Positions 2,855-21,313 of a DNA stretch of 21,313 nt are shown here, in pieces. Source of the stretch: a virus; the IMG/VR virus record IMGVR_UViG_3300039191_000075, positions 1 to 21,313 of that record; one strand, given 5' to 3'. The notes under the pieces are model-generated. The model had not been told where the DNA came from and made no database searches. It was given only the letters and a program-made list of their open reading frames with translations. Both the position numbers and the translations under genes were made by a program. The first letter of the stretch is position 1. Each line of letters begins with the position of its first letter.

Positions 2855-3795
2855 TAGGGTTTAAACCGATAATTAAGAAAAAACTCGGACACTTTGGCAA
2901 TGGTGTTAGTGCCATTGGCGATAGCTACGTGTCTACAAACTTCTCAGATAACCGAGAAAAACCAGAGGCGGACTGTTATGTCCAGTTTAACATATATAAT
3001 CCGTACTACAATTACAATAGAGCGGTACAGCCGCAAGCGTTTCAGTACATACTCGATCAGCATAAGCCATTCCTTGTGTGCGAAGAAGGTGCATTTCGTC
3101 AGTTTCCTGAATATAAAAGATTTGGATGGTATAGCTATAAGAACGGCATTGGTATTTTTGATAACGGCGACATAGACAGCAACCGTTGGCAACAGTTTAA
3201 GAAAGACACTGGAATAAGTATTCCTGACTGGAATAGCCCAGGAGAGAACATTTTAATAATGGCCCAGGTTGAAAAAGATAGCGCATTAATAGAAATGTAC
3301 GAAGCAGGATATAACAGCTTTGTAGAATTCGTTATTGAGCAAATCTACACTCTAAGAAAATATACCGACCGACCGATAGTAATACGGCCTCACCCTAGGA
3401 CAGTTTATAGTCTTGGTACTGCTATTGAGACCTTGCATAATATAAAAAACGTATCTGTTAGTAAGAACTTTTCTTGTGATTCAGAGAACTCGCTCAACGG
3501 TGGTTCAGGGCTACAAACTGACTTAGACTCCGCTTACTGTGTAGTTACCTACAGTAGCAATAGTGGAGTAGAAGCTGTTTGTCAAGGCATACCAACATTT
3601 GCACTAAGTTCTACTTCGTCTATATATGACATTGCACATACTGACCTCTCTTTAATAGAGAATCTTAATTATAACATCGACATAGAGAACTGGTGTAATC
3701 AGATAGCGTATTCTGTATGGAGCCCGAGTGAGCTCGATTCAGGCGAGACGTGGGCTCACCTTAAGGAAGTCTACTATGCCAAAATTAAAAAGTAA
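2845..3795 (+). CDS. KpsC/Kdo-transferase-like glycosyltransferase, paralog 1
   Basis: A 316-residue protein. The C-terminal half has RPIVIRPHPR (176-185), then VVTYSSNSGVEAVCQGIPTF, then an ENW...WSPSEL...GETW tail. This block is typical of the nucleotide-binding half of capsule polysaccharide KpsC/LipA-like transferases with GT-B fold. Three other genes here share the same block (5682, 6485 and 10799), so this is an expanded family. The N-terminal half is unlike the paralogs and may set the acceptor. The start overlaps the GT25 gene. Donor and acceptor are not readable. Confidence 0.65.
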   Translation: MRVVGFKPIIKKKLGHFGNGVSAIGDSYVSTNFSDNREKPEADCYVQFNIYNPYYNYNRAVQPQAFQYILDQHKPFLVCEEGAFRQFPEYKRFGWYSYKNGIGIFDNGDIDSNRWQQFKKDTGISIPDWNSPGENILIMAQVEKDSALIEMYEAGYNSFVEFVIEQIYTLRKYTDRPIVIRPHPRTVYSLGTAIETLHNIKNVSVSKNFSCDSENSLNGGSGLQTDLDSAYCVVTYSSNSGVEAVCQGIPTFALSSTSSIYDIAHTDLSLIENLNYNIDIENWCNQIAYSVWSPSELDSGETWAHLKEVYYAKIKK

Positions 3796-4375
3796 AGAAG
3801 CATTAGATAGGATACTAAAGATTATAGACACAAATTCAATAGTGTTAGATATAGGAGCCGGTGCTGAGCAAATACACGCAAAGGTTTTTAGAAAAAACAG
3901 ACACACTGTAGACACTGTTGATTTTTTTCCAGAATCGACTTATGTAGGAGATTTTAATTTAATAGAGATCAATAAGCAGTACGACGTAGTATGGGCAAGC
4001 CACTGTTTAGAGCATCAGTTGAATGTCAACTTATTTTTAAAGAAGGTGCACTCAGTAGTTAAAAATAACGGATACGCTGTAATTACAGTGCCGCCTCTCA
4101 AACATAAGATTGTGGGAGGCCACGTAAGCCTTTGGAATGCAGGATTATTAATTTATAACCTAGTGTTAGCAGGATTTGATTGTAGTAATATTCAGATAAA
4201 ACAGTACGGATACAACATCAGTGCTATTGTCCAAAAGACAGATAGAAAAATTCCCTTTGAGTTGTTAGAATACGATACTAAAGACCTAGAAACTTTAAAC
4301 CGATTCTTTCCTAAAGATGTTACTTACGAGAAGAACTGTATATTTAATGGCGATATAGAAATCCTAAACTGGTAG
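3776..4375 (+). CDS. class I SAM-dependent methyltransferase
   Basis: A 199-residue protein with motif I VLDIGAGA (23-30), an acidic loop end at VDTVDFF, and the methyltransferase-11/12 signature WASHCLEH (73-80) followed by NNGYAVITVPP. The ATG at 3776 is chosen because AAGGAAG lies a few bases upstream. An earlier in-frame start lies inside the preceding gene and adds an unrelated, low-complexity N-terminus. It overlaps the preceding transferase by 20 bases and is followed 3 bases later by a sulfotransferase. Within a glycan operon the likely target is a sugar hydroxyl or carboxyl (inference), though a nucleic acid or protein target is not excluded. Confidence 0.75.
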   Translation: MPKLKSKEALDRILKIIDTNSIVLDIGAGAEQIHAKVFRKNRHTVDTVDFFPESTYVGDFNLIEINKQYDVVWASHCLEHQLNVNLFLKKVHSVVKNNGYAVITVPPLKHKIVGGHVSLWNAGLLIYNLVLAGFDCSNIQIKQYGYNISAIVQKTDRKIPFELLEYDTKDLETLNRFFPKDVTYEKNCIFNGDIEILNW

Positions 4376-4378
4376 ATT

Positions 4379-4981
4379 ATGAGTCAAGAACACATTAAAT
4401 TAAAATACGGAATCAGTGAGTGGAAAGAATTCTCTCTGAATTTTTGGAATATTCCGAAGTGCGGGTCAACTGCGGTAAAAGCTGCATTGTTAAAGAAACA
4501 CAGCCTATCACCAACAGATGTCAGCCAGCAACTTCATAGTACAGACTTAGCAACTTATATTACTTCTGATCAAGCTCGAATAAATGGGAATTTGAATTTT
4601 GCAGTAATAAGACACCCGCACGACCGTGTTATTTCGATGTATAAAGACTTTGGATTAAGAAGGCCTGTAAAAGGGCATAAAAAGAAACTATTATCTAGCT
4701 TCGATTACTTTCTAGACAAGGTAGTTGTGCCAAGTAAAGACAAAACGTGCAACGTGCATTTTAGAAGCGCAAGCTCTTACATATCACCCGACGGCGTTGT
4801 GTTAGTAGACAGAGTACTAACCTTAGTTACAGTAAAAGAGTTTCTTTACAATCGCGGCATAGATTTTATTAAAGTTAACGCATCTCCGGAACTAGAGATG
4901 CAGCTATCCGATGAGCACAAAGAAAAAATAAAAAGTAGGTACGCGCCTGATTTTATTCTTTGGGCTAATTGCGCTGTATAA
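4379..4981 (+). CDS. sulfotransferase (PAPS-dependent type)
   Basis: A 200-residue protein with both PAPS-binding motifs: the 5'-phosphosulfate loop NIPKCGSTAVKAALL (PKCGST at 26-31) and the 3'-phosphate motif FAVIRHPHDRVISMY (74-88). The family moves sulfate from PAPS to carbohydrate or protein acceptors. It is distinct in sequence from the four minus-strand sulfotransferases at 7418-10731 but has the more canonical P-K-x-G-S-T loop. Its stop codon lies inside a late promoter octamer at 4977-4984 that reads into the next gene. Confidence 0.8.
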   Translation: MSQEHIKLKYGISEWKEFSLNFWNIPKCGSTAVKAALLKKHSLSPTDVSQQLHSTDLATYITSDQARINGNLNFAVIRHPHDRVISMYKDFGLRRPVKGHKKKLLSSFDYFLDKVVVPSKDKTCNVHFRSASSYISPDGVVLVDRVLTLVTVKEFLYNRGIDFIKVNASPELEMQLSDEHKEKIKSRYAPDFILWANCAV

Positions 4982-7417: not shown

Positions 7418-7831
7418 TCAGTAACCTAAGAAGTCAAAATCGTGTTTGAAAACATGCTCTATGATTTTCCTAGAACTAAGCGTCATCTCAACATTTACAT
7501 TTTGATACTTTGTATTTTCATGTGGCAGCGGGTTGAAATAACCTAGCTGTTCTTGAATTGTAGCAAAATCCTTTTGTACGTTCTCAACTTTAATTATCGA
7601 ATCTACCTTAACATTTCCCGGATAACCGTTATCAGTGAGCCAGTATATCTGATTGGTTTTAAACTTGTATTCTGGGCTGAAATCAAGGTCTTTAATAGGA
7701 GTGTGCATCCTATGATAATCAACTGAGTCGCCGTAGATGTCTTCGTACCACCGCCGTACACTTGTACCTGCCGACTTAGGTACATGTACAAACACGCTGC
7801 TCTGATTGGCGTCAGTAACCGAATACGTCAT
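7418..7831 (-). CDS. shortened sulfotransferase paralog (internal deletion)
   Basis: A 137-residue protein with the PAPS loop VFVHVPKSAGTSVRRWY (PKSAGTS at 18-24) and a C-terminal part FKTNQIYWLTDN...IIEHVFKHDFDFLGY that closely follows the gene at 10018-10731. The middle of the family, including the 3'-phosphate motif (VVRNPYSRAVSWY in the paralog), is missing at about residue 50. About 100 residues are gone without breaking the frame. It is therefore probably inactive or altered, although it stays in frame and coupled: its ATG directly follows the stop of the upstream transferase. Confidence 0.7.
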   Translation of the reverse strand: MTYSVTDANQSSVFVHVPKSAGTSVRRWYEDIYGDSVDYHRMHTPIKDLDFSPEYKFKTNQIYWLTDNGYPGNVKVDSIIKVENVQKDFATIQEQLGYFNPLPHENTKYQNVNVEMTLSSRKIIEHVFKHDFDFLGY

Positions 7832-8682: not shown

Positions 8683-9348
8683 TTAGTAGTTAAACTTCTC
8701 AAAGTCGTTGGCAAATACTTCTTCGATAATCGCACGTGACTTTTTTGACATTCTAAAGTTGTTAGTCCTAAGCTCTTTTTCTGCGCCTGTGTACAACTGA
8801 ATGCCGTCATCAATACCGGTTGCTTGCTGGACTTGAGCAAACTCTTCATCAAAGTTTTCAAACCTGATGATGTAGTCGATTTTATCACCTGGTACTGTGT
8901 CGGTTGAGTCGTTGCTTAACCATTGACATTGTGTAAAAGTGAACTTATGACGTGCACCCGACCAGCCGCCTTTGTCAACGTCTTTGCCCATAAGAAAAGA
9001 TGCTTCTTGATAGAACTGACTAAGCCATGCGTCAAACCCCTTTTCCCAAACCGAAAGTTCAAACGCAGCCTTTGGGTTTTTCTTTTCTAGACCACGCAGT
9101 ACTCCGCCGTGGAAGTTATACCAACCAATTGCACGATCATATGGATTTCTTACTATAGACCATGTAACGTAATTCGACATATCGAAGCCGGTGTTCATGT
9201 ACTCGTAGTTTGCTGAAAACGGCGCATCCATCTCCTCGTAGTTGTTCTTGTACCAATAAAATATGTTTGGTGATTCAGCACCGACAACAGTGATATACGC
9301 ACTGTCTTTGATGCCGTCTTTGTCGTTGTTTGTACCGAGGTAACTCAT
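8683..9348 (-). CDS. sulfotransferase paralog with degenerate PAPS loop (copy 1)
   Basis: A 221-residue protein. It keeps the 3'-phosphate motif SIVRNPYDRAIGWY (64-77), the WEKGFDAWL and QCQWLSND regions and the family tail EVFANDFEKFNY. Where the paralog at 10018 has HITKCAGSSV, this one has VVGAESPNIFYWY (21-33), without the P-K-x-G-S/T loop lysine. Its nearest relative is the adjacent gene at 9361. GGAGAAGAG lies just upstream of the ATG. It may be a non-catalytic or neofunctionalised sulfotransferase-fold protein. Confidence 0.68.
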   Translation of the reverse strand: MSYLGTNNDKDGIKDSAYITVVGAESPNIFYWYKNNYEEMDAPFSANYEYMNTGFDMSNYVTWSIVRNPYDRAIGWYNFHGGVLRGLEKKNPKAAFELSVWEKGFDAWLSQFYQEASFLMGKDVDKGGWSGARHKFTFTQCQWLSNDSTDTVPGDKIDYIIRFENFDEEFAQVQQATGIDDGIQLYTGAEKELRTNNFRMSKKSRAIIEEVFANDFEKFNY

Positions 9349-10017: not shown

Positions 10018-10731
10018 TTAATATCCCAAACGCTCGAAGTCGTCCTTAAAGATATGTTCGATAGCTCTTTTAGACTTCTTGTTTAGCGTTACCTTCTTTG
10101 ATATCAAAGTTTTATTTACAAATTCTAAATCTCGTGTTGTATTTAACAAATTTTTAATCGTTTGAAAGCCACTGTCGAGGTTTTCTACGCGCACAATGTG
10201 ATCTATACACAGCTTGTTATTGCTGTCAGTTAGCCAGTACGTTTGGTTAGTTTTAAAGTGATACCACATAGGGTCTACAGTTGACCTGGCACTTTGCCTA
10301 GGATCCAGCGATGCAGTGTCTGCGTATCGCTGAATCCAATAGTCAAAGCCTTTCTCCCACGCTTTTATTTCTACAGGATCGATCTCAAAGTCTCTCTGAT
10401 CAACAGTCCTGTCCAGCTGTGGAAACTGATACAGTACATAGTCTCGACCGTATTGTTTTTCTTGTTCCTTGAACGTTTGGGCCAGCTTCATCATATGTCC
10501 GTGATACCGGTACCAGCTCACTGCCCTACTGTAGGGATTTCTTACAACTGTCCACGTCATGTAGTTACTGCAATCGTAATTTTCTAAAAAGTACGACACC
10601 GGACGATGTGGAAGAAAGTCTGCATGTTTGGGTGAGTATCGCTGGTGATAGAAATTTGTCACACTAGATCCAGCGCATTTAGTGATGTGAATAAAGATGT
10701 GTTTCGGATCCTTGTGGACTATTATCGACAT
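10018..10731 (-). CDS. sulfotransferase, canonical member of the minus-strand paralog set
   Basis: A 237-residue protein with PAPS loop IFIHITKCAGSSVTNFY (TKCAGSS at 17-23) and 3'-phosphate motif TVVRNPYSRAVSWY (61-74), followed by FKTNQTYWLTD and tail HIFKDDFERLGY. This is the only member of the four-gene array with both motifs intact. It is first in the minus-strand run, after a divergent promoter region, with AAAGGA before the ATG. Probable substrate: a sugar hydroxyl in the glycan made by the neighbouring transferases (inference). Confidence 0.78.
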   Translation of the reverse strand: MSIIVHKDPKHIFIHITKCAGSSVTNFYHQRYSPKHADFLPHRPVSYFLENYDCSNYMTWTVVRNPYSRAVSWYRYHGHMMKLAQTFKEQEKQYGRDYVLYQFPQLDRTVDQRDFEIDPVEIKAWEKGFDYWIQRYADTASLDPRQSARSTVDPMWYHFKTNQTYWLTDSNNKLCIDHIVRVENLDSGFQTIKNLLNTTRDLEFVNKTLISKKVTLNKKSKRAIEHIFKDDFERLGY

Positions 10732-11684: not shown

Positions 11685-12992
11685 ATGAGTGTATATTCTG
11701 TTGAACACATCTTAAGAATGCTGGTAGGCCTTGACAATTCCAAGGGCCATTTTACTATTCCTGCTGGCGACAGGCCTGTAATCAGCAGCATCGCAAAACA
11801 GGTAACCCGTGGCACCGGCCTTACAGAACGTCAGCACGATCTTGTCAAGAGCAAACTGCTAGGCGTGCATTATGTCACGCAGTTTTACCGTCAAGGTGTT
11901 ACTCCCCACGAGTATGAAAAAGCTCTAGCAACAACTGATCTGCCTCTAAGAGAGATTGATCGAACTATGTCTATTGAACTTATAAACTCAATTGCTGACG
12001 AAGACATTAGCCAGTTCCTGGCGCAGCGATACGAAGATCGACTTAACTCGCCGTGGGTCAAAGTAACGTTTCCATTTAGTAAACGCATCATAACACTACT
12101 TGACAGTGTCAAAGAACACACCCAAGAAGTTATTCATTCGTCTGGTTCAAATAGCCAGTACTTCAAGTTCAACGAACGTATTGTATTCATGCTTCTAAAA
12201 ATATTTGAAGGCGAAGGCTTTGAGGTCGACAACGAGCTAACCGAGTATCTCAAAAAACTTGAGACCATAACCAAAAACAAGACTGCATATCTTCCCTACG
12301 CAAAAGAAGGTGTAGTGGAAAATCTGCATCCCGAAGCTCAATCAATTCTTGAGAGCAAGTTAGGCAAGCCTTCTGTCGAGAACTTCTTTCAGTACAAAGA
12401 CCGTTCTGTTCTATTTGATATTAGGTATTTCGACGAAGAACTGTTAGAGCAGTCAACAGAGAGATGTTCATCGCTTACAAAGAGGTTAATCAAACGTGAG
12501 TCAGTGCAGGTGCTAACAAGCCCAGCAGACTACACTATTGAAGAGATTGTAGAGTCGCTGATTGAGCTCAAGAGGTTCCCAGTGATGTGCATAGTGACTA
12601 ATCCTGACTCAGTAAGGGCTGTGTACAAAATACTTAAACACTGCACCTCTAATAACGAAGTAAGTGTGCTGTTTAGAATGGACAACGTCGTTGACCCAGA
12701 CTTCAACAAGTTTGTGAAAGACAACGAACTGAACTCGCCTGTGACTGATCACACAAAGGTTGTGTTTGTGTCAAAAGACAAACTTCCTAAGCCGTTGGTC
12801 AAGAGTGGCTGGTACCCAGAAGCTATTCTTCGAGTAGGCAGCACCCGCGTTCAGACTAAGATCGATCAGTGGACAACAGACTGCGATCTAGTAGTTCACT
12901 ATGACACTGTGGCATCGCCTTGGGTAAACCCGCACAGTAACAACGTTAGAAAAAGCAAGAAAAGGATTGTTGAAAAACTATATGGCGTGTAG
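11685..12992 (+). CDS. conserved phage protein of unknown function upstream of uvsW
   Basis: A 435-residue protein beginning MSVYSVEHILRML, with a Gly-Thr-Gly-Leu-Thr-Glu-Arg-Gln stretch near residues 48-55 that recalls large uncharacterised proteins of marine T4-like phages. I see no Walker, zinc or nuclease motif, no signal peptide and no membrane segment. The second half alternates beta-strand-like hydrophobic runs (FPVMCIVTNPDS, VSVLFRMDN, HTKVVFVSK), suggesting alpha/beta domains perhaps related to a helicase or nucleotide-binding fold without its catalytic motifs. Its end overlaps the uvsW start by 11 bases, so a function with UvsW is plausible but inferred. Confidence 0.7.
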   Translation: MSVYSVEHILRMLVGLDNSKGHFTIPAGDRPVISSIAKQVTRGTGLTERQHDLVKSKLLGVHYVTQFYRQGVTPHEYEKALATTDLPLREIDRTMSIELINSIADEDISQFLAQRYEDRLNSPWVKVTFPFSKRIITLLDSVKEHTQEVIHSSGSNSQYFKFNERIVFMLLKIFEGEGFEVDNELTEYLKKLETITKNKTAYLPYAKEGVVENLHPEAQSILESKLGKPSVENFFQYKDRSVLFDIRYFDEELLEQSTERCSSLTKRLIKRESVQVLTSPADYTIEEIVESLIELKRFPVMCIVTNPDSVRAVYKILKHCTSNNEVSVLFRMDNVVDPDFNKFVKDNELNSPVTDHTKVVFVSKDKLPKPLVKSGWYPEAILRVGSTRVQTKIDQWTTDCDLVVHYDTVASPWVNPHSNNVRKSKKRIVEKLYGV

Positions 12993-14004
12993 ACTAATAA
13001 TACAAGACGAAGTAAACATAAAACTAGAAGGGCTGCCTGTTGACATTCGACGCAAATGTGCAAGCGCCTTAAAGTACGAAGTTCCTTATGCTAGACACAT
13101 GCCTCAATACAAACTGGGCAGGTGGGACGGCAAAGTCGGGTTTTTTGGAATCGGCGGCAGCGGTTACTTAAATCACCTCGACAGGGTTATCGAAGTTCTC
13201 CAAAAGAACGGAATTGAAATAGATGACATAGTTGACAACCGTGAAGTTTACAGTTTCAACTTTCCTAAGGTTACAGAAGAATTTTGGGGAGATACCTGTT
13301 GGTCAAAGGGACACCCAGCAGAAGGGGAGCCCATTCGACTTCGCGACTATCAAGTAGAAGTCATCCAAAACTTTGTTAACAATCCTCAAGCATTACAAGA
13401 AGTTGCAACAGGCGCTGGTAAGACAATTATCACAGCTACATTATCGAAGCTAACCGAGCCGTATGGTCGCAGTCTTGTTGTAGTGCCTAACAAGAGCCTA
13501 GTTAGTCAAACAGAAGAAGACTATGTAAACTGTGGTCTTGATGTAGGCGTGTACTTTGGCGATAGAAAAGAACTTGGTGCGACACATACTATCTGCACAT
13601 GGCAGTCACTAAATGTCCTCGACAAGAAACACAAAGACGGATCGGGTGTACTGAGCCTTGCTGAGTTCCTAGAAGGCGTATCTACTATCATTATAGATGA
13701 GTGTCTTGACGGCGACACATTAGTTACAACTCCAACAGGGAAAGTTGCTATAAAGCACTTAGAGGTCAATGACGTAATAATTAACTTATGCGAAGAAACA
13801 AACACATATAAAGAAGACGTTATAGTTAAAGTACATAAAAATCTGTCAAACAGTGACTCTGAGAATATGCTAGAGTTAGAGTTTGACAACGGTAGTGCTA
13901 TTAAAGTAACAGCCAACCATAAGTTTTTAACTAACAAAGGCTGGGTAAGAGCAGACCAGCTAACTGATGATCTAGATATTATTGACATAAATACATACGG
14001 CTAA
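12982..14004 (+). CDS. uvsW: UvsW helicase N-half fused to N-intein
   Basis: UvsW is an SF2 helicase that unwinds R-loops and branched DNA in T4 and helps move replication from origins to recombination. Residues 1-240 are the N-extein: an N-terminal domain (LGRWDGKVGFFG), motif Q/I with Walker A ATGAGKT (Lys147), and the start of motif II, IIIDE. Residues 241-340 are a 100-aa N-intein that starts with Cys241 (CLDGDTLVTTP, block A) and holds block B (VTANHKF), then stops. The protein therefore lacks motifs III-VI and must be joined to the product of 14913-15755. ATG 12982 is chosen over upstream TTG codons because it aligns with UvsW starts. Confidence 0.85.
   Translation: MACRLIIQDEVNIKLEGLPVDIRRKCASALKYEVPYARHMPQYKLGRWDGKVGFFGIGGSGYLNHLDRVIEVLQKNGIEIDDIVDNREVYSFNFPKVTEEFWGDTCWSKGHPAEGEPIRLRDYQVEVIQNFVNNPQALQEVATGAGKTIITATLSKLTEPYGRSLVVVPNKSLVSQTEEDYVNCGLDVGVYFGDRKELGATHTICTWQSLNVLDKKHKDGSGVLSLAEFLEGVSTIIIDECLDGDTLVTTPTGKVAIKHLEVNDVIINLCEETNTYKEDVIVKVHKNLSNSDSENMLELEFDNGSAIKVTANHKFLTNKGWVRADQLTDDLDIIDINTYG
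13702..14001 (+). other. N-intein (IntN), 100 residues
   Basis: It begins with Cys1 and CLDGDTLVTTP (block A), and has LELEFDNGSAIKVTANHKF (block B with the T-x-x-H pattern). The end, DIIDINTYG, is where natural split inteins such as cyanobacterial DnaE IntN (about 102 aa) also stop. Length and motif order match functional trans-splicing inteins. Confidence 0.88.
13986..13993 (+). promoter_or_regulatory. T4-type late promoter inside IntN, CATAAATA
   Basis: CATAAATA within the last N-intein codons, 25 bases before the endonuclease ATG. The spacing is similar to other late octamers here. It would transcribe the endonuclease and the C-half of uvsW late, apart from the N-half. Confidence 0.5.
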
Positions 14005-14017
14005 AGGAGAAGTGTTT

Positions 14018-14926
14018 ATGGCAAAGAGTTTTGATATTGACAAGTTTAATAGAATTCTAAAGAGTTTTGCCCAAACGGTATGCGCAGAGAGTATATCGGT
14101 AAACGAAATAAGATTATCTAACGGAGTAACTATGACCACCAAGCGAGACATTCGCTTGTGTAAAAAAAGAGTAATGTCCGGCCATGCTGTATGGAAGGAA
14201 GAGTTTGACAGTTTGTATAGCACCGATATTACTGTTAGATTGCTTGCTGAAAAAACAGCAAGAGCAGTTACTTCAAAGAACGGTGGCATATCTTGTCAAG
14301 CAAAACACAGCAATAAGATAAAGGAAAACCTAAATAACGGAACACCTTGGAATAAAGGAATGAAAGGCAACTACCCTTATTCGTTGCCGGTGTCAGACGG
14401 AACTAAGAAAAAAATTAGTCTAGCAAATCAGGGCATCAAAAACGGAATGTACGGAAGTACAATGTCGTTAGCTGATCGGCAGCATCGTAGTAAAATAATG
14501 AAAGAAAAGATCTTAGCTGGAACATTTACTCCGAACTCTAATAACAGAAACACTCATTGGGATTCTTGGTACAGCGGCAAAATGTACAGGAGCTCGTGGG
14601 AAGCATTGTACCAATATTTCGACCAAGACGCAGAATACGAAACCGTACGCATCCCGTATACATTTAACGACATTGACTGCGTGTACATAGTTGACTTCGT
14701 TAATCATAGCAAACGACAGTTAATTGAAGTAAAACCTGCGGAATTGTTACATGACAAAAAGACCAAAGCAAAGCTAGCGGCAGCAGCCTCGTGGAGCAAA
14801 CAAAACAATTATGTATTCATAATCGCAGATAAGGATTTTCTCATCGCAAAAGGAGTTCCTGAGAGTTTAGAAAATTTCGACGCTAGTACACAAAACAAAA
14901 TTAGGAAGTTATATGAAATTAGTTAA
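14018..14926 (+). CDS. free-standing homing endonuclease, NUMOD3 plus PD-(D/E)xK/EDxHD-type domain
   Basis: A 302-residue protein. The middle has two NUMOD3-like DNA-binding repeats: NGTPWNKGMKG (107-117) and NGMYGSTMSLADRQHRSKI (142-160). The C-terminal nuclease-like domain has YRSSWE (Glu195), VYIVDF (Asp226) and LIEVKP (Glu237, Lys239), a pattern of Vsr-like EDxHD or PD-(D/E)xK homing nucleases. The start is ATG 14018, 8 bases after AAAGGAG, which overlaps the IntN stop. The end overlaps the C-intein start by 14 bases. It would be expected to cut intein-free uvsW alleles near the DECH codons (inference). Confidence 0.78.
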   Translation: MAKSFDIDKFNRILKSFAQTVCAESISVNEIRLSNGVTMTTKRDIRLCKKRVMSGHAVWKEEFDSLYSTDITVRLLAEKTARAVTSKNGGISCQAKHSNKIKENLNNGTPWNKGMKGNYPYSLPVSDGTKKKISLANQGIKNGMYGSTMSLADRQHRSKIMKEKILAGTFTPNSNNRNTHWDSWYSGKMYRSSWEALYQYFDQDAEYETVRIPYTFNDIDCVYIVDFVNHSKRQLIEVKPAELLHDKKTKAKLAAAASWSKQNNYVFIIADKDFLIAKGVPESLENFDASTQNKIRKLYEIS

Positions 14927-15017
14927 GAAGACAGTTATTAACAAGCCAGAAACTGTGTACAACTTACACGTTAAGAATGATCACAATTACATTGCTAATG
15001 ATACAGTTGTAGCAAAT
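14913..15017 (+). other. C-intein (IntC), 35 residues
   Basis: Starts at its own ATG, has block F (VYNLHVKNDHNYIA) and block G (TVVAN followed by Cys). Length equals that of DnaE-type IntC (about 35-36 aa). Confidence 0.88.
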
Positions 15018-15755
15018 TGCCACCAAGCAAAGGCAGAAGTGCTCAAACGAATTCTAACACAGAATCTTAAGAATGCACCTATCCGTTGGGGCCTAACTGG
15101 TACTGTACCTAAGGAAGCATTTGAGTTTGAAAGCATTCATGCTAGTCTTGGTCCTGTGATTGGCAAAATAAGTGCAAAAGAGTTACAAGACAAAGGCGTT
15201 CTGTCAAAGTGTCATGTAAATGTATTGCAGCTAATGGACGTTCAGGTGTTCCGCGATTACCAGTCAGAACTAAAGTACCTTGTGTCTGATCCCGACAGGA
15301 TTGCCTATATTGCATCAGTAATGAATCAAGTCAAGCAGTCAGGTAACACGCTTATCCTAGTTGACAGGATATCAGCAGGCGAGATGTTGCAAGAACTAAT
15401 TCCAGGCAGCACATTCATCTCTGGGTCGGTAAAAGCCAATGACCGAAAAGAAACTTATGATACAATTCGAGAAGGAACAAACGAAGTAATCATTGCCACA
15501 TACGGTGTAGCAGCCGTTGGTCTTAATATTCCTCGTATATTCAACCTTGTGCTACTAGAGCCAGGCAAGAGTTTTGTGCGAGTAATACAGTCTATTGGAC
15601 GTGGCGTTCGTAAAGCAAAAGACAAGGACTTTGTGCAGATATGGGATCTCACATCAACTTGTAAGTTTGCTAAGCGACACCTTAGAGAACGAAAGAAGTT
15701 TTATAAAAACGCAGAATACCCCTTCACTATAGAAAAAGTGGACTGGACAAAATAG
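14913..15755 (+). CDS. uvsW: C-intein fused to UvsW helicase C-half
   Basis: Residues 1-35 are the C-intein: ETVYNLHVKNDHNYIANDTVVAN covers blocks F and G and ends in the essential Asn35. The penultimate residue is Ala, not His, as also in cyanobacterial DnaE inteins. Cys36 is the +1 nucleophile and begins the extein CHQAKAEVLKR. The helicase part then has LTGT (61-64, motif III-like), EVIIATYGVAAVGLNIP (motif V region) and QSIGRGVRK (226-234, motif VI), as in T4 UvsW. The spliced product would be about 485 residues, near the T4 length. AGGAAG 5 bases upstream supports ATG 14913. Confidence 0.87.
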   Translation: MKLVKKTVINKPETVYNLHVKNDHNYIANDTVVANCHQAKAEVLKRILTQNLKNAPIRWGLTGTVPKEAFEFESIHASLGPVIGKISAKELQDKGVLSKCHVNVLQLMDVQVFRDYQSELKYLVSDPDRIAYIASVMNQVKQSGNTLILVDRISAGEMLQELIPGSTFISGSVKANDRKETYDTIREGTNEVIIATYGVAAVGLNIPRIFNLVLLEPGKSFVRVIQSIGRGVRKAKDKDFVQIWDLTSTCKFAKRHLRERKKFYKNAEYPFTIEKVDWTK

Positions 15756-19402: not shown

Positions 19403-20182
19403 ATGCAGCTTACGCCTAGATATTTAGTCAGCAACAGAACTATAGTTATTTCAAATGAAGTAGGCTTTGTCACGGAGTACAGACCAGTGTATCAAAGAGA
19501 ATTACAAGTATACAGAGGAATAGACAACGTCCTTGATTTCCAAATACTGAACGCGGATCAAAAGCCTGTTCACTTAGGAGAAAGAGTTGTTAAATTTGTT
19601 GCGTTCGATGAGAGCTCACATCTTATTATCGAACACGATGCAGAAACTGTTATCGCAAACAAAGGTCTTGTCAAAGTTACTGTTACAGACAACGACTTGA
19701 TCAATATACAGCAACAGTATTTGCGATACAACCTTTACATCTGCAACGTAGACGATTCTAGAACACTAACATACGCTGATGAACATTTCGACGCAAACGG
19801 CATCATCTATCTCAGCTCTCGTGCATACCCAGGACCTAAGAAAGCACTTGAACTTAAAACGTTCAACAGCTTAAACTTTGACGACGACATCTTTATCTCA
19901 GAAGCAATATCTGCAGAGCCAGGTATTAACGGCAACGAAGCTGTACACACAGCAGCAATCTACACAAACGGCTACGTCGGCGATGTTATCCTAGAAGCTA
20001 CTCTAGAAAATCAGATACCAGGGCAAGACATTGTAGAGTGGACAGTAGTCGACACAATCACCTTTGACGGCACAGAAGTTGATCCGGTTCCAGTAAACTT
20101 CGTAGGCATATACACCTACATTAGATTTAAAGCTGAGAACAATCCTGCTGATACTATTGAAAAAATCTTAATTAGAAATTGA
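19403..20182 (+). CDS. virion structural protein, BppU-like N-terminal domain
   Basis: A 259-residue protein. The stretch VYQRELQVYRGIDNVLDFQILNADQKPV (about residues 29-56) resembles the N-terminal immunoglobulin-like domain of phage upper-baseplate (BppU) proteins and of unnamed structural proteins of marine T4-like phages. The rest is beta-rich and acidic, with no signal or membrane segment. A late octamer directly upstream fits a structural gene. The next gene has its own strong early promoter. Exact place in the virion is unknown; baseplate or neck attachment are possible. Confidence 0.65.
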   Translation: MQLTPRYLVSNRTIVISNEVGFVTEYRPVYQRELQVYRGIDNVLDFQILNADQKPVHLGERVVKFVAFDESSHLIIEHDAETVIANKGLVKVTVTDNDLINIQQQYLRYNLYICNVDDSRTLTYADEHFDANGIIYLSSRAYPGPKKALELKTFNSLNFDDDIFISEAISAEPGINGNEAVHTAAIYTNGYVGDVILEATLENQIPGQDIVEWTVVDTITFDGTEVDPVPVNFVGIYTYIRFKAENNPADTIEKILIRN

Positions 20183-20207
20183 CAAGTCATTGATATTGCG
20201 CTATAAT
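20179..20207 (+). promoter_or_regulatory. perfect sigma-70 promoter (TTGACA-N17-TATAAT)
   Basis: TTGACA at 20179-20184, a 17-base spacer and TATAAT at 20202-20207, all consensus. It overlaps the stop codon of the virion gene. The start point would fall near 20213-20214, at the ATG of the primase remnant. This looks like the original early promoter of the primase gene, now cut off from it by the endonuclease insertion. Confidence 0.75.
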
Positions 20208-20213
20208 TTTTAA

Positions 20214-20279
20214 ATGAGCGCAGTTGCCGATACAACCTTAACATACCTACCAGCGAAACGCAAGACCACTCCTAGTGGT
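20214..20279 (+). pseudogene. 5' remnant of a diverged primase (gp61) gene
   Basis: The first 22 codons, MSAVADTTLTYLPAKRKTTPSG, align with the start of the intact primase at 21072 (MSIVSDVSIAYYTQGSKVKTTPSG), with 11 identities and a 2-residue gap. After SG the similarity stops and the frame runs into the endonuclease. The copy is too diverged for a fresh duplication, so it probably came from another phage allele. Confidence 0.72.
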
Positions 20280-20297
20280 GTATTTTCTTACTTTATG

Positions 20298-20305
20298 TAT
20301 AAATA
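20298..20305 (+). promoter_or_regulatory. T4-type late promoter for the GIY-YIG gene, TATAAATA
   Basis: Perfect TATAAATA, 23 bases before the endonuclease ATG at 20328, with AAGGAG (20312-20317) between them. Confidence 0.6.
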
Positions 20306-20327
20306 CACAACAAGGAGCATTAAAGGT

Positions 20328-21071
20328 ATGTTTTATTTATATGTAAAAACTCATAAAAAAACTGGATTAAAATATTTAGGGCAAACATCTAGAGATCCGT
20401 ATGTTTATAAAGGATCTGGATTAAGGTGGACCAATCATATTAAAAAGCACGGTTACGATGTTGATACTTTAATATTATTAGAAACAACAGATAAAGTTGC
20501 ATTATCAGAAGCAGGACTGTATTATAGTAATTTGTATAATGTTGTAAATGATTATAATTGGGCAAATATAGTTGCAGAATCAGGAACAGGCGGCGATACT
20601 TCTAAAAGTCCTAATTTTATTGAATCCATGAAGCACCGAGATTTTTCGTACAGACAAGATCTAAAGTATAAAGAAAAAGTATCTATAGCAGTAAAAAAAT
20701 ATTGGAACACTAGATTTGAAGATCCCTCTTTTAATAAAGAAGAATATAAAAAGATGTGTTCTGAAAGAAGTAAATCTATGTGGGAATCTCGAGGTATTAC
20801 AGACGAAGATAGGATATTACGTTCAAAAAGACAAACAGAATATTTAAATACTCCGGGAGTTAAGGAATCATTATCACAAAAAGCTAAAGCAGCCTGGCTT
20901 AAAAAGTCAAAAACGTATGAAGTAACATTTCCAAACGGCCATACAGAAGTTGTAAAATCATTTAGAGGATGGTGCAAGGATAATAATTATCCTTATTATA
21001 AACTGTATAATACTATTAGAAATAACAAGCCGTCAAAAGATGGATGGCAAGTGCGGATAATTGAGGATTAA
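20328..21071 (+). CDS. GIY-YIG homing endonuclease (Seg-like)
   Basis: A 247-residue protein. The N-terminus FYLYVKTHKKTGLKYLGQT (2-20) is a GIY-YIG variant (YLY…KYLGQT), followed by YKGSGLRWTNHIKKHG and a candidate catalytic Glu61 (SEAGLYYSNLYNV). The middle is lysine- and arginine-rich. The end, TEVVKSFRGWCKDNNYPYYKLYNTIR, looks like a modular DNA-binding helix-turn-helix. The true start is ATG 20328 after AAGGAG; the longer frame from 20214 only reads through the primase remnant. Base composition is visibly more AT-rich than the neighbours, as in imported endonuclease genes. It lies directly before the primase gene, its probable homing site. Confidence 0.82.
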   Translation: MFYLYVKTHKKTGLKYLGQTSRDPYVYKGSGLRWTNHIKKHGYDVDTLILLETTDKVALSEAGLYYSNLYNVVNDYNWANIVAESGTGGDTSKSPNFIESMKHRDFSYRQDLKYKEKVSIAVKKYWNTRFEDPSFNKEEYKKMCSERSKSMWESRGITDEDRILRSKRQTEYLNTPGVKESLSQKAKAAWLKKSKTYEVTFPNGHTEVVKSFRGWCKDNNYPYYKLYNTIRNNKPSKDGWQVRIIED

Positions 21072-21313
21072 ATGTCAATAGTTTCGGATGTATCAATTGC
21101 ATATTATACACAAGGTAGTAAAGTAAAAACTACACCAAGCGGCTGGATGTCAAGAAACGCACCCTGCTGTCATCATAATGGTCATTCACCAGACGATAGA
21201 GGCAGAGGTGGGTTCAAAACCAGTCCAGACGGCGGAGCAAGTTATCACTGTTTCAACTGTGGCTTCAAAGCATCTTGGCGTCCTGGACGCAACCTATCTG
21301 TCAAGTATAAGAA
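21072..21313 (+). CDS. gp61-type DNA primase (N-terminal part, cut by window edge)
   Basis: The first 80 residues are visible. A zinc-ribbon pattern is present: APCCHHNGH (Cys32, Cys33, His34-35, His38), then GGASYHCFNCGFKASWRPG (Cys60, Cys63). This is the primase zinc-binding domain as in T4 gp61 and DnaG relatives, which reads the priming site on ssDNA. GAGGATTAA sits immediately upstream of the ATG. The catalytic TOPRIM part is beyond the window. It works with the gp41 helicase in the phage replisome. Confidence 0.78.
   Translation, partial: MSIVSDVSIAYYTQGSKVKTTPSGWMSRNAPCCHHNGHSPDDRGRGGFKTSPDGGASYHCFNCGFKASWRPGRNLSVKYK

Follow-up and report, generated by a model that had tools for sequence, protein, structure and literature searches.

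How does an endonuclease gene come to lie between two beginnings of the same primase gene, and which of these beginnings belongs to the resident phage? The window under study, i.e., the whole 21,313-base stretch of an IMG/VR virus record, carries this locus at its right end, and the architecture of the region can be read directly from the sequence, with all elements on the plus strand. A primase promoter of the early type (20179–20207; TTGACA, a 17-nt spacer and TATAAT, matching the consensus at 12 of 12 positions) ends 6 nt before the ATG of a stranded primase head of 22 codons (MSAVADTTLTYLPAKRKTTPSG, 20214–20279), hereafter called the remnant. This remnant opens an ORF of 285 codons (20214–21071) that continues in frame into the endonuclease gene (20328–21071, 247 amino acids), the stop codon of which directly precedes the ATG (21072) of an intact primase gene. 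The latter gene opens with MSIVSDVSIAYYTQGSKVKTTPSGW, and the head fused there (AYYTQGSKVKTTPSGWMSRNAPCC)—about 35 codons up to the CCHH zinc-finger codons, 21072–21175—leads into a primase body (21176–21313) that is cut by the window end. The body is complete in L001, a contig nearly the same as the window (3 differences over 3242 nt), which encodes a 333-residue primase assigned to the PHROG 47 DNA primases (E = 6.6e-35). The first-pass annotation had described a primase start occurring twice, and both the ORFs and a comparison of the heads with the uninterrupted relative L002 confirm this. The arrangement of remnant, endonuclease and intact primase recurs in many other contigs; its presence in contigs of many metagenomes rules out an assembly chimera.

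The 247-residue protein matched the homing endonucleases of PHROG 314 (E = 3e-6). In an alignment of family A, the endonuclease family of the window, it displays a GIY-YIG motif (YLY...YLG) with Glu and Asn downstream in the order typical of these enzymes; no column of this alignment has a conserved Arg as a candidate for the catalytic one. A predicted structural model (mean pLDDT 74, with block values of 88–95 within the first 80 residues) resembled the catalytic domain of I-TevI (1ln0) with a probability of 1.00, a TM-score of 0.67 by target length and an E-value of 0.076; part of the HNH homing endonuclease I-HmuI was matched as well (probability 0.98), neither structural E-value being below 0.04. 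The Pfam GIY-YIG profile was reached only by family C (E = 1.5e-7), and a Pfam scan of the 285-residue ORF gave no hit. Motif and model together point to a GIY-YIG-type homing endonuclease with putative cleavage and homing activities, and a sequence footprint of transfer is present at the L002/L194 pair described below. A mobile group I intron was rejected, as no Rfam match appeared in 19900–21313 up to an E-value of 1 and none window-wide at gathering scores; likewise, an intein was discarded because a stop codon precedes the primase start and the 285-residue ORF has no intein domain. Among phage records, a nucleotide search with 19403–21313 returned nothing, the primases found were less than 60% identical to that of the window, and the family A endonuclease had only partial Vibrio phage matches.

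Elsewhere in the window, a UvsW-like helicase is distributed over two ORFs (12967–14004 and 14913–15755) with facing ends that match intein splicing domains, and an endonuclease-like gene (14012–14926, with a TnsA-like domain and a hint of NUMOD3) lies between the two halves; the region 12967–15755 has the appearance of a fractured gene with a split intein. Four genes with the Pfam domain Sulfotransfer_2 were also observed, one on the plus strand (4379–4981) and three on the minus strand (7418–7831, 8683–9348 and 10018–10731); together with a methyltransferase gene beside them (3728–4375), they form unusual cargo next to replication genes.

The origin of the two primase heads emerged from comparisons with other loci. 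The remnant matches the head of L002, the closest uninterrupted relative, at 50 of 66 nt, a level of similarity that marks it as a real primase head and not a chance motif, whereas its agreement with the second head of the window is limited to 39 of 66 aligned nt; all six codons of the shared KTTPSG stretch differ between these two copies. The L002 promoter is homologous to the one before the window remnant, and the two primase bodies are 88.6% identical. The second head has a different affinity: positions 20895–21175, spanning the 3′ end of the endonuclease gene and the head, are 97.5% identical to L003 over 281 nt, although the primase bodies share only 59% identity. This identity breaks off abruptly at 21175, in the CCHH codons, and the flanks and bodies are diverged. 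Judged from these alignments, the upstream head at 20214 is native and the downstream head at 21072 is imported. The earlier proposal that the element brought along part of another phage's primase allele thus holds—with the L002/L194 pair, the cassettes shared by L059 and L110 and by the window and L003, and the conflict between head and body all in its favor—but its polarity has to be reversed. By the same token, the suggested hunt for the 20214 head in another lineage was aimed at the wrong head, and the match found in L002 is the native allele. Among the best 80 of more than 600 matching loci, none represented an uninterrupted source lineage with precisely the imported head of the window, and that head was carried only by deletion derivatives.

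A comparison of primase loci with and without the endonuclease, as advised in the first-pass annotation, uncovered a natural pair of empty and occupied alleles. L002 (empty) and L194 (occupied) differ by 4 mismatches over 2915 nt upstream and 10 over 2831 nt downstream (>99.6% identity on both sides); between these flanks, 121 bp of the L002 primase gene (codons ~14–54) are replaced in L194 by 911 bp that comprise part of an older remnant with stop codons, a GIY-YIG-type endonuclease and another divergent head. The cassette belongs to family B and not to family A of the window. Head and endonuclease appear together relative to L002; L194 represents the insertion product predicted by a homing model, and the pair bears out the notion of an invading endonuclease that leaves the primase gene whole. 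Moreover, L059 and L110 have diverged flanks around a cassette whose two edges align without differences, apart from a single mismatch near the right-hand one. On the left, the cassette starts at the SG–W codons in the remnant, and on the right, it extends almost to the CFNCGF codons in the primase. Both contigs have a remnant of their own (MSVVAETVLTYLPTKRKTTQGG in L059 and MSIVSDTVTAHLPSKRKTTPSG in L110). Remnants next to an endonuclease gene were found in the window (20214–20279), L059, L110, L194, L374, L385 and L398.

The decay of the endonuclease has left its marks too. In L003-type contigs, the family A endonuclease is reduced to its 3′ part; L126 retains less of it and L217 just the last 24 nt, and all three keep the imported head; L109, in turn, is a deletion derivative of family B. 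It had been held that an extra head existing as an independent small gene in phages lacking the endonuclease would speak against an invasion. Such cases were restricted to L003, L126 and L217, each of which carries scrap of the endonuclease 3′ end; they are therefore deletion derivatives, which supports the homing model. Divergent heads accompanied by no endonuclease at all occur in L218, L219, L220, L225, L232 and L244. In L218 and L219, the divergent head stands behind an apparently native start with neither endonuclease nor remnant, and these two loci may be cured but still protected alleles. Viewed at the level of sequence, this collection of loci thus contains empty and occupied alleles, joint transfer of head and endonuclease, a series of decay stages and conflicting head and body relationships.

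We consider it very probable that the locus harbors a homing element in which the endonuclease gene and a substitute 5′ end for the gene it targets, the primase, together form the mobile unit. According to this model, the endonuclease would cut the primase gene of a co-infecting phage inside the zinc-finger head, and repair would copy the donor. The right end of the copied tract would join at the conserved zinc-finger codons and the left end via the recipient's own head, which is homologous to the donor's remnant upstream of the endonuclease. As a product, the old head of the recipient would be stranded upstream, followed by the endonuclease gene and then by a primase gene that combines the divergent head of the donor with the recipient's body. 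The gene would stay whole, and its new head would probably no longer match the cutter; the six differing KTTPSG codons are compatible with such resistance. At a later stage, the endonuclease could be lost by deletion while the imported head stays. We infer cleavage, the position of the cut, the resistance of the imported head and the route of repair from the arrangement of the alleles.

Other explanations have to be weighed against this model. Homologous recombination might swap primase heads for other reasons, e.g., because a zinc-finger variant is selected, with the endonuclease as a possibly inactive passenger. The endonuclease-free heads of L218, L219, L220, L225, L232 and L244 fit this scenario in that they indicate that heads can exist, and perhaps move, alone. 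However, both the left and the right junction are found near one fixed position of the head, and all full-length family B/C relatives retrieved were located at primase. The replaced tract can measure as little as 121 bp, and many lineages have kept an intact endonuclease frame—observations that render a head swap in the absence of homing unlikely. The two heads are also homologous and adjacent, as would be expected if a free-standing endonuclease gene had arrived by illegitimate recombination and the heads had arisen by tandem duplication and divergence within one lineage, with no exchange between phages. Against this, only the remnant, and not the second head, is similar to the uninterrupted allele, the second head is common to L003 (97.5%) despite bodies that are only 59% identical, and head and endonuclease arise together in the L002/L194 comparison; we regard a tandem duplication as the least credible of the alternatives.

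A further alternative concerns the product of the locus and not its origin, as the in-frame fusion of remnant and endonuclease (285 amino acids) could itself be functional, with the head as a leader for targeting or expression. Both the native promoter and the start codon have been preserved, and the remnant is in frame with the endonuclease in the window and with its leftovers in L109, L126 and L217. Nevertheless, the remnant stops before the endonuclease in L059 and L110, is broken by stop codons in L194 and lies out of frame in L003, and the endonuclease gene has a promoter-like box and an ATG of its own. A functional fusion is thus very unlikely—only marginally more plausible than the tandem duplication—and an endonuclease that travels with a replacement primase head remains our preferred reading.

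The signals around the locus illustrate how expression might be arranged under this homing model. The 6-nt distance between promoter and ATG recurs in 107 of the 114 uninterrupted loci with the promoter pattern (165 loci scanned; e.g., L002 and L006–L017), a spacing suggesting that the primase mRNA is probably leaderless. In the occupied state, the native start would drive the remnant, and expression of the intact primase would depend on two features where the endonuclease gene ends, a GAGG-like site and the TAAATG junction. A box resembling T4-type late promoters, TATAAATA, lies at 20298–20305, 22 nt ahead of the endonuclease ATG at 20328, and similar boxes stand before the endonuclease in L059 and L110. 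Since the motif occurs four times in the window versus 1.4 times expected, a late promoter at this position is suggestive only; of the first-pass description of an endonuclease gene with its own late promoter between the heads, the location is correct and the promoter keeps this weaker status. A terminator-like hairpin with a T-rich tail (ACCACT-CCT-AGTGGT, 20265–20289) was noticed at the remnant junction, but 1.3 such hairpins are expected by chance in the region and we claim no role for it. As a separate observation on the primase neighborhood, L007, L020, L023, L138 and L178 contain an ORF of ~580 residues between a structural gene and the primase that resembles outer-membrane receptors and, by eye, TonB-dependent ones.

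To gain a broader view of the distribution of these elements, a profile of family B/C endonucleases was applied, which retrieved 32 further contigs with full-length relatives of these enzymes (L372–L403, some of the contigs being near-copies of one another) in addition to known loci and weaker, more distant ones. The endonuclease gene lies directly upstream of primase in 32 of these 32 contigs, and a replacement head of the SGN type is present in 30. In L400 (2992–4657) and L402 (2899–4555), the primase head is neither canonical nor SGN-type but of the YSFNCPACIHNG type, possibly an ancestral or separate state. We also examined the upstream stretches of 32 cassette contigs, i.e., 29 of L372–L403 together with L059, L110 and L194. 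A scrap of CFNC or CFSC codons was present in all of them, 31–44 nt before the position taken as the match start; these upstream stretches comprise 21 distinct sequences, each of which has the scrap, compared with 11 of 42,000 shuffles. Among L372–L403, the most complete remnant is that of L374 (MLTAVQDAVLQLLPSRRRTSSSGWISFNAPCCHHRGHKPDTRSRG, then CFNC); the remnants of L385 and L398 extend to GW, and others are shorter. The scrap suggests that family B/C elements insert at the codons of the second zinc knuckle. No CFNC scrap was seen by eye in family A, so the insertion point in the window is less well fixed. In a tree of 43 primase bodies, L110 pairs with the uninterrupted L181, and L003 groups with the uninterrupted L035 and with L217. 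This tree requires 12 changes of head type (at least 10 of them forced by supported branches), a number indistinguishable from that obtained with shuffled labels (mean 14). On balance, we lean towards a widespread class of elements, composed of an endonuclease and a cleavage-resistant 5′ primase head and represented by at least two distantly related families (A and B/C), that would drive continual replacement of zinc-finger heads in aquatic T4-like phages and leave endonuclease-free immune alleles behind.

Such a class of elements would have implications for the use of primase as a phylogenetic marker, as it suggests why the zinc-finger heads of these enzymes conflict with the rest of the gene. 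The natural pair of empty and occupied alleles, together with the decay series, opens to experiment the questions of where the enzyme would cut, how far the repair tracts reach (121 bp were replaced in one instance) and what becomes of the element. No earlier description of such a phage element was encountered in the available parts of PMC10448857 and PMC2988022, or in the titles and abstracts searched, which cover few subscription journals, and we consider its novelty for phages provisional. Under this model, a mechanism known in yeast and fungal mitochondria would operate in phages as well, and at a gene's 5′ end. The closest parallel is offered by the WHO elements of yeast, which home at FBA1 in Torulaspora and Lachancea with replacement of the 3′ end and for which allele-specific cleavage has been demonstrated (PMC7282813). 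In both systems, the endonuclease and a replacement end of the target are mobile together, the old end is left as a fragment—which supplies homology for repair in WHO elements, as proposed here—and the target becomes chimeric, with conflicting trees for the parts of the gene (3′ versus 5′ in WHO elements, head versus body here). Unlike the phage element, WHO proteins are HO-related enzymes of the intein/zinc-finger kind, and the nuclear gene of yeast that they target is replaced at its 3′ end; the GIY-YIG-type enzyme and the 5′ replacement in a phage primase, with cleavage inferred, mean that the phage element would work like a WHO element yet is none. Similarly, mobile ORFs of fungal mitochondria (atp6 in Allomyces; atp6, atp9, cox2 and nad3 in Glomus) carry a foreign gene end on an endonuclease ORF and displace the native one, and one of the Glomus enzymes is of the GIY-YIG type (PMC3630166). 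Those replacements are C-terminal, mitochondrial and mostly associated with LAGLIDADG enzymes, whereas the one described here is N-terminal and found in phages. Among phage systems, the free-standing seg genes of T4-like phages also place a GIY-YIG enzyme beside its target gene and home by repair with co-conversion, and some T4 endonucleases have late promoters (PMC2988022). The T4 seg genes occupy positions between genes according to this source, and none is reported there to strand the head of its target and supply a new one, in contrast to the insertion inside the primase head that stranded the first codons here; the insertion of mobE in nrdA of phage Aeh1 is named in the same paper. A selfish gene devoid of any splicing device could, under our model, occupy an essential replication gene by bringing the missing piece with it. 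In phage Aeh1, the endonuclease resides inside an essential phage gene and the NrdA protein works in two pieces; in the present locus, by contrast, the primase gene is rebuilt whole.
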